DNA from: a bacterium
GTDB lineage: Bacteria > Sysuimicrobiota > Sysuimicrobiia > Sysuimicrobiales > Segetimicrobiaceae
Direction of reading: 5' to 3'
DNA: 34,706 nucleotides
NCBI GenBank assembly: GCA_035295165.1
Contig: DATGJN010000085.1
Location: forward strand, 1-34,706
Both the position numbers and the translations under genes were made by a program. Shown piece after piece: positions 26,076 to 26,781 of the stretch. Numbering within the stretch: position 1 is the first letter of the stretch; every line of letters starts with the position of its first letter. A model generated the notes under the pieces. The model worked only from the letters and a program-made list of their open reading frames with translations. It was not told the origin of the DNA and made no database searches.

Positions 26076-26104
26076 TTGACGTATTCCTGGCGCTAGGCTA
26101 AAAT
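26076..26104 (+). promoter_or_regulatory. Strong sigma-70-type promoter placed for leaderless translation
   Basis: TTGACG (26076-26081), a 17-base spacer and TAAAAT (26099-26104) make one of the best promoters in the window. Six bases separate the -10 from the GTG at 26111, so transcription should start at or next to the start codon. No Shine-Dalgarno sequence fits before that GTG. Confidence 0.75.
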
Positions 26105-26110
26105 AGGCGC

Positions 26111-26266
26111 GTGGCGACGAAGAAGAGGCATCCCGCAGCGGTGGCCCTTGGCCGAAGAGGCGGAAAAGCGAGAGCGGCCCGGTTGTCCCCCAAACGGCTG
26201 ACCGAGATCGGCAGAAAAGGGGCACGGGCGCGCTGGGCCAAAGCGAAGAAGACGCGGAAGCCGTAG
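26111..26266 (+). CDS. Small, very basic protein, apparently leaderless
   Basis: A 51-residue protein reading MATKKRHPAAVALGRRGGKA and ending KAKKTRKP. About a third of residues are Lys or Arg and much of the rest Ala and Gly. It resembles a group of tiny bacterial proteins with an ALGRxGGKARAxxLxP core and an EIxRKGAxARW repeat, both visible here (GRRGGKARAARLSPKR, then EIGRKGARARW). The composition suggests nucleic-acid or ribosome binding, but the function is not established. The promoter's predicted start coincides with the GTG, so the mRNA is probably leaderless. It is too short to be found by usual length cut-offs. Confidence 0.7.
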   Translation: MATKKRHPAAVALGRRGGKARAARLSPKRLTEIGRKGARARWAKAKKTRKP

Positions 26267-26383: not shown

Positions 26384-26620
26384 ATGCCCGACAACGCTTA
26401 TTGGTCGGGACCGGAGCGGCGTACCATCACCACCGCGGAAGGCCTGGCTCGGCGGGTTGCCTTTGAAGACTCCTGTGAGCTGCTCCGGGTGCTGCGCCTG
26501 TCATCGCCGGCCCTCGACTTCTACAAACAGCGTGCCCGAGAAACCGGGCTCCTGCCGCACGAGTACATGCTCCAGGTTGTCGAGAACGAAGCGCGGCGGT
26601 CATCGGCCGGCAGCGCATGA
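26384..26620 (+). CDS. Small hypothetical protein
   Basis: A 78-residue product starting at ATG 26384, with the strong purine-rich GGCGGGGGGAAG directly before it. It begins MPDNAYWSGPERRTITTAEG and ends with a helical stretch, SPALDFYKQRARETGLLPHEYMLQVVENEARRS. The helix-turn-helix-like spacing and the GLLPHEYM turn recall ribbon-helix-helix style antitoxins, but no N-terminal strand pattern confirms this and I do not assign the family. The stop overlaps the next small gene as ATGA, so the two are a coupled pair. The direct-repeat pair upstream could be its regulatory site. Confidence 0.65.
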   Translation: MPDNAYWSGPERRTITTAEGLARRVAFEDSCELLRVLRLSSPALDFYKQRARETGLLPHEYMLQVVENEARRSSAGSA

Positions 26621-26781
26621 CGCCCTCCCCTTCGCACCCGTTCCACAGTACCGAGTGGAAGATCATCGGCAAGTACTTCCTCAAGCTCTTGGTCGTCAGT
26701 TACCTCCTCATGAAACTCATCGTTTATCTCACCCGCGTCCTCGCCGATTACTTCATGTACCACGTGTGGAGGTTCGTCTAA
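26617..26781 (+). CDS. Small hydrophobic, probably membrane protein coupled to the preceding gene
   Basis: A 54-residue product beginning at ATG 26617 in a four-base ATGA overlap. After a polar start (MTPSPSHPFHSTEWKIIG) comes one hydrophobic helix (YFLKLLVVSYLLMKLIVYL), then an aromatic tail (ADYFMYHVWRFV). One membrane pass with aromatic interface residues is likely. The pairing of a small soluble protein with a small membrane protein is suggestive of a toxin-antitoxin or membrane-regulator pair, but there is no family match and this is speculation. Confidence 0.55.
   Translation: MTPSPSHPFHSTEWKIIGKYFLKLLVVSYLLMKLIVYLTRVLADYFMYHVWRFV

Follow-up and report, generated by a model that had tools for sequence, protein, structure and literature searches.

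A candidate leaderless gene for a 51-residue basic protein, and the recurrence of its start layout across a protein family

A promoter set against a forced GTG start codon

The locus described here raises two questions: whether the transcript of a small gene begins at the gene's own start codon and, if so, whether this is a habit of the organism or of the gene. The window, that is, the whole stretch of DNA that was analysed (34,706 nucleotides), is the first 34.7 kb of contig C85 of genome G000, from an uncultured soil bacterium. The 43 genomes of its phylum that were used all belong to a single order, and this may point to Sysuimicrobiota (CSP1-3; PMC11604079), which has one class and one order and includes a soil family. 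In the initial annotation, the gene was described as preceded by TTGACG, a 17-base spacer, TAAAAT and six bases, with a GTG start and no ribosome site, and this description is exact in the sequence, which holds the following elements:

26076–26081, forward strand: -35 element TTGACG, read from the sequence; matches the consensus at 5 of 6 positions and is the same in both same-genus orthologs
26082–26098, forward strand: 17-nt spacer; identical to the orthologs at 17/17 (G001) and 16/17 (G002) positions
26099–26104, forward strand: -10 element TAAAAT, which reads TAGAAT in both orthologs; the leading TAA of TAAAAT is also an in-frame stop
26105–26110, forward strand: 6-nt discriminator AGGCGC; length kept in the orthologs; the -1 position, next to the expected +1, is a C
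26111–26266, forward strand: gene for the 51-residue basic protein; GTG start at 26111–26113, TAG stop at 26264–26266; expected transcription start at 26111

A reading of the upstream sequence found no SD-like tract before GTG26111. With 10 of 12 positions matched, TTGACG/TAAAAT is the top sigma70-type match (3 matches in 18.7 kb, 1.2 expected). A strong promoter followed after 6–7 nt by a start codon that opens a reading frame of 40 codons or more is found at one place in the window; 60 block-shuffled windows gave no instance of this combination, and 400 kb of genome sequence gave two. A search of the genome for repeated or mobile copies of the promoter, allowing up to 3 mismatches, found none elsewhere.

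The choice of start codon leaves little freedom. The -10 box itself contains a stop in the same frame (TAA, 26099–26101), no other start codon stands between it and GTG26111, and the next one downstream falls within the conserved core of the protein; GTG26111 is therefore forced as the start. Its G is the expected +1 and, together with the C at -1, makes up a YR initiator. The gene has three sequence features of TANNNT-type leaderless genes: a -10 box 5–7 nt off, no SD and a fixed start.

Conservation of promoter, spacing and protein among orthologs

Orthologs of the gene were found in two genomes of the same genus (G001 and G002; one of these orthologs is also JAJPIA010000121.1), with 84% identity at the protein level. 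The 38-nt block that runs from TTGACG to GTG is identical at 36/38 and 34/38 positions in the two orthologs, whereas the 40 nt before the -35 element match at only 11–12 positions and are unalignable. Because the block and the reading frame are conserved and the flanking DNA is not, promoter, spacing and protein are, as judged from these alignments, jointly under constraint.

The pattern of change within the reading frame bears on whether it is a gene at all. A 51-codon ORF is small, genomes of 65–70% GC are rich in spurious ORFs, and a conserved gene lies downstream, so that the promoter could serve only the genes that follow or an RNA that codes for no protein. However, third codon positions carry 24 changes, as against 11 + 4 (15 in all) and 8 + 3 (11 in all) at first/second positions, and 25–26 of the codon differences are synonymous while 8 are non-synonymous. 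This excess of synonymous change argues that the gene is translated and, since homologs at the protein level also occur in many phyla, we regard a non-coding role as extremely unlikely.

The ortholog comparison also bears on the position of the promoter. The main promoter could lie further upstream and produce a leader lacking an SD, in which case TTGACG/TAAAAT would be incidental or minor and initiation would be SD-independent rather than leaderless. Many bacterial genes do lack an SD, and there are 191 nt of intergenic DNA upstream in which such a promoter could sit. Yet a scan of these 191 nt gave no further consensus promoter, conservation is limited to the stretch from the -35 element to the GTG, and the 6-nt spacing recurs in relatives whose upstream DNA is unrelated (see below), which makes an upstream main promoter very unlikely.

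The 17-nt spacer is as conserved in the orthologs as the hexamers, something that a plain promoter would not need, and this near-invariant spacer may hold an operator. An imperfect inverted repeat, CCTGGCGCTAGG, lies within it at 26086–26097; with 5 of 6 pairs it is not significant alone, and although it is a possible operator, none is claimed.

Translation starts in the rest of the genome

A leaderless layout had been taken in the initial annotation to imply that this organism has a special mode of translation, and a genome-wide search for TANNNT before start codons had been proposed. Some phyla are indeed rich in leaderless genes (PMC3160421, PMC12340547), and the organism might rely on them as broadly as Actinobacteria or Deinococcus do, the 51-residue gene being one among many. 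We ran the search on 400 kb of G000, with 239 genes of at least 100 aa, and on 202 genes of G006, from the window's taxonomic family; the gene sets were called with a simple finder of our own and have ambiguous starts. No excess of TANNNT was found 5–7 nt before candidate starts in either set (-0.9% and 0.0%). Instead, SD motifs peak 4–11 nt before the starts of the 239 genes, and G006 likewise has an SD peak and no leaderless peak. Nine other genomes showed little or no TANNNT excess, at most about 6% (G137), and the CspA and HU genes of the window's taxonomic family lack the leaderless layout. These results do not support the proposed special mode, and reliance of the organism on leaderless genes at large is highly improbable.

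The leaderless layout recurs across the protein family

If the organism does not account for the layout, the protein family might. Homologs were collected from whole genomes of the same and other phyla, from genome contigs and from 40 viral contigs, with upstream DNA ignored, and in the resulting 91 non-redundant members any in-frame start before the core was scored for TANNNT at every spacing. Members span cellular genomes of many phyla as well as viral contigs. TANNNT was found at spacings of 5, 6 and 7 nt in 9, 27 and 16 members, respectively, as against a mean of 3.25 at spacings of 12–35 nt. The same holds for cellular members (6, 20 and 10; background mean 1.9) and for viral members (3, 7 and 6; background mean 1.4). 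Taken as a union, 48 of the 91 members have TANNNT 5–7 nt before an in-frame start.

These leaderless-type starts share further features. The fraction with a -35 box matching at 4 or more of 6 positions is 62%, versus 20% in shuffles, and eight of the promoters have an exact TTGACA. An SD-like motif precedes only 3 of the 48 starts, which are ATG in 37 cases, GTG in 10 and TTG in one. A pyrimidine occupies -1 in 33 of 42 leaderless relatives (p = 0.0003), which fits the -1 position of a YR initiator. Small genes as such do not behave in this way: among CspA and HU genes from the same genomes, used as controls, about 3 of 80 have TANNNT at 5–7 nt and 65 of 80 have an SD-like motif (Fisher p about 1e-13). 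A looser promoter scan that was blind to the protein led to the same family, as both starts at exactly 6 nt in the 400-kb sample of G000 encode family members, as does one of three in G006.

The layout is common, not universal. The other 43 members have no TANNNT at 5–7 nt, and some of them carry SDs (L142, L144, L164); a tblastn search of annotated plasmids and phages yielded a single distant plasmid homolog, in Hoeflea, with an AGGAGG SD. Together, the enrichment at 5–7 nt, the ordinary genome background and the CspA and HU controls support that, at the level of sequence, the leaderless layout follows the protein family and not the organism. The expectation that the transcript begins at GTG26111 likewise draws support from the ortholog-conserved block, the YR initiator and the recurrence of the layout in the family.

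A TANNNT box beside the start of leaderless genes is well known (Zheng et al. 2011, PMC3160421), as are the '-10-motif' ORFs of Deinococcus-Thermus (PMC12340547) and the enrichment of the COG categories chromatin structure, RNA processing and transcription among leaderless genes (Zheng et al. 2011, PMC3160421). The 51-residue gene resembles these systems in the distance of about 6 nt between the -10 box and the start, in the lack of an SD and in having the start codon as its expected +1. It differs in that theirs is a genome-wide mode of certain phyla, often without a -35 box, whereas here the genome has no such mode and the layout goes with a single family of proteins, in many cases together with a -35 box. 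In the open-access literature searched, we found no earlier account of leaderless expression that follows a family of proteins across phyla in genomes that use SDs. Leaderless genes are usually described as typical of particular organisms; in this case the trait appears to track a protein family through organisms whose other genes use SDs, and the family offers a clean natural set of examples with which to study the purpose of leaderless initiation. Comparing start regions family by family can expose leaderless genes in uncultured phyla without transcript data, and can also settle the start codons of small genes.

Operator-like perfect inverted repeats were seen in the promoters of L021, L118, L121 and L122 (e.g. 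CTAAAGCGCTTTAG and GCTTAGCGCTAAGC). Perfect palindromes with 7-bp arms between the -35 and -10 elements occur in 4 of 47 other leaderless promoters, versus 0.3% in shuffles. No general palindromic operator is claimed, since beyond these four the distribution is ordinary and the window copy has only 5 of 6 pairs.

Features of the small basic protein

The initial annotation had likened the product to little-studied small basic proteins, and this fits the present results: no Pfam or NCBIfam model matched the 51-residue protein above cut-off. An AlphaFold2 model built from a 19-member alignment is a two-helix hairpin (mean pLDDT 85.5, pTM 0.48), and a fold search of the PDB with it gave no match. 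The hairpin is placed as follows:

26132–26257, forward strand: predicted helical hairpin (AlphaFold2), residues 8–24 and 27–49, with the turn at LSP

The core motif of the family reads ALGR-GGKARA...LSPERR-EIARKAARARW. In having two G-[RK]-[RK]-G-[GA]-like motifs and in being small, hydrophilic and basic, the protein resembles the KGG repeat proteins (PF10685, YciG-like). However, membership was rejected, as its score of 14 bits is under the Pfam gathering cut-off of 20.4 and only 2 of 19 family members have any match. LEA_5 was also under its cut-off.

A relationship to phage-type proteins is suggested by phrog_2384, which 16 of 19 family members match, and by L102, which combines the family match with a P63C domain (PF10546, E = 3.4e-17). 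The N-terminal basic motif GGYARA..LTPEARKEIAKRAAATRW is common to the P63C phage-type proteins (PF10546; phrog_2384) and the family. The window protein is this motif standing alone, in 51 residues and without the P63C domain, and it was rejected as a P63C-domain protein because only the N-terminal motif is in common. In the genome of L102 (G084:C2), where the P63C protein opens with the family motif, a stand-alone member of leaderless type (L013) lies about 1 kb away on the opposite strand.

Genomic neighbours and recombinase pairs

The window copy is surrounded by genes for a short-chain dehydrogenase, two small unknown proteins, a GYD-domain protein, an aminotransferase and a methyltransferase, and no serine recombinase adjoins it. 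It looks like a resident copy that has been kept vertically. The gene next downstream may be a second cistron:

26384–26620, forward strand: downstream gene, function not assigned; syntenic at the two orthologous loci; ATG preceded by a purine-rich tract, GAGAGGCGGGG

This gene has no Pfam match. It overlaps by ATGA with a gene at 26617–26781 that resembles a short membrane protein, an overlap that could reflect translational coupling.

A different setting was found for five paralogs in the window's taxonomic family, which stand head-to-head with a serine recombinase: L006 (G000:C17), L028 (G006:C6), L103 (G000:C33), L111 (G001:C76) and L185 (G006:C34). The gaps measure 86–278 nt overall and 86–101 nt in four of the five pairs. 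The divergent recombinases match Resolvase in Pfam (E = 1.3e-15), and few other serine recombinases occur in the stretches sampled. In the short-spacer pairs, a purine-rich tract that resembles an SD (e.g. CAGGGGGT) precedes the start of the recombinase gene, and the small gene is leaderless by its layout. Other members adjoin an HTH_17 gene or a tyrosine-integrase-like gene (the latter judged by eye only), or sit near tRNA genes. We found no earlier report of this pairing between family members and a serine recombinase in the open-access literature searched, and the pairing provides a first functional handle on this uncurated family.

Because several paralogs have divergent recombinase partners and the domain opens P63C phage-type proteins, the family appears to be of mobile-element ancestry. 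Its members are most likely small nucleic-acid-binding proteins, regulatory or architectural; the binding itself is suggested by their basic composition and gene neighbourhood.

Proposed mechanism and the origin of the layout

As a whole, the data are best explained by a leaderless mRNA starting at GTG26111 and a small nucleic-acid-binding hairpin protein of mobile-element ancestry, an explanation in which we place good, though not full, confidence. Sigma70 RNA polymerase would start transcription at the G of GTG26111, and a 70S ribosome would then initiate directly at the 5'-terminal GTG with no SD pairing, as on other leaderless mRNAs. The product would be a small basic helical-hairpin protein, most likely a nucleic-acid binder, which might also regulate its own expression. 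From the neighbourhoods of its relatives, a role in the control of mobile DNA may be proposed, comparable to that of CvkR, lambda cI and Tn1721 tetR.

CvkR, a repressor of type V-K CRISPR-associated transposons, is made from a leaderless mRNA (PMC9938897). Like the recombinase-paired paralogs, it is a small mobile-element gene product, leaderless and divergent from its partner across a short spacer (82 nt for CvkR; 86–101 nt in four of the five recombinase pairs). In contrast, CvkR is a MerR-type regulator of 150 residues with a characterised operator, whereas the window protein is a 51-residue helical hairpin with no mobile partner. Lambda cI and Tn1721 tetR are small DNA-binding regulators of a phage or transposon with leaderless transcripts (summarised in PMC9938897), but these proteins are unrelated to the 51-residue protein.

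Such precedents also invite a plainer account of the layout. The leaderless mRNAs of these three transposon or phage regulators, the recombinases that adjoin family members and the viral contigs that hold others are all consistent with a layout that is real but a by-product of compact promoter-gene units in mobile elements, with no need arising from the protein or its regulation. However, in the short-spacer pairs the purine-rich SD-like leader belongs to the recombinase only, and element compactness alone does not explain a leaderless partner; moreover, the resident window copy keeps the layout without a mobile partner. A by-product is a reasonable possibility, though we would not bet on it. 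On the other side, leaderless expression could be a selected trait that persisted as the family spread horizontally between phyla and that forms part of the control between small protein and recombinase, the window copy being a resident descendant. The recombinase would then be made from an SD-led mRNA and its partner from a leaderless one, so that the state of the ribosomes (70S versus 30S initiation, stress) would shift their ratio. We consider such selection rather unlikely.

Several of the recombinase pairs have direct repeats over both promoters (e.g. ATACGCGCTAACA and ATACGTGCTCA). Members were also seen beside genes for tRNA-Phe (L107), tRNA-Val (L024) and tRNA-Ser (L119), and the subfamily SIWVKLGRKGGKARAARLSAVERRRIAMLGVEARRAK with its close variants (L019, L026, L027, L099, L101 and L109, from G004, G007 and G009) occurs as neighbouring copies near tRNA-Thr(CGT).
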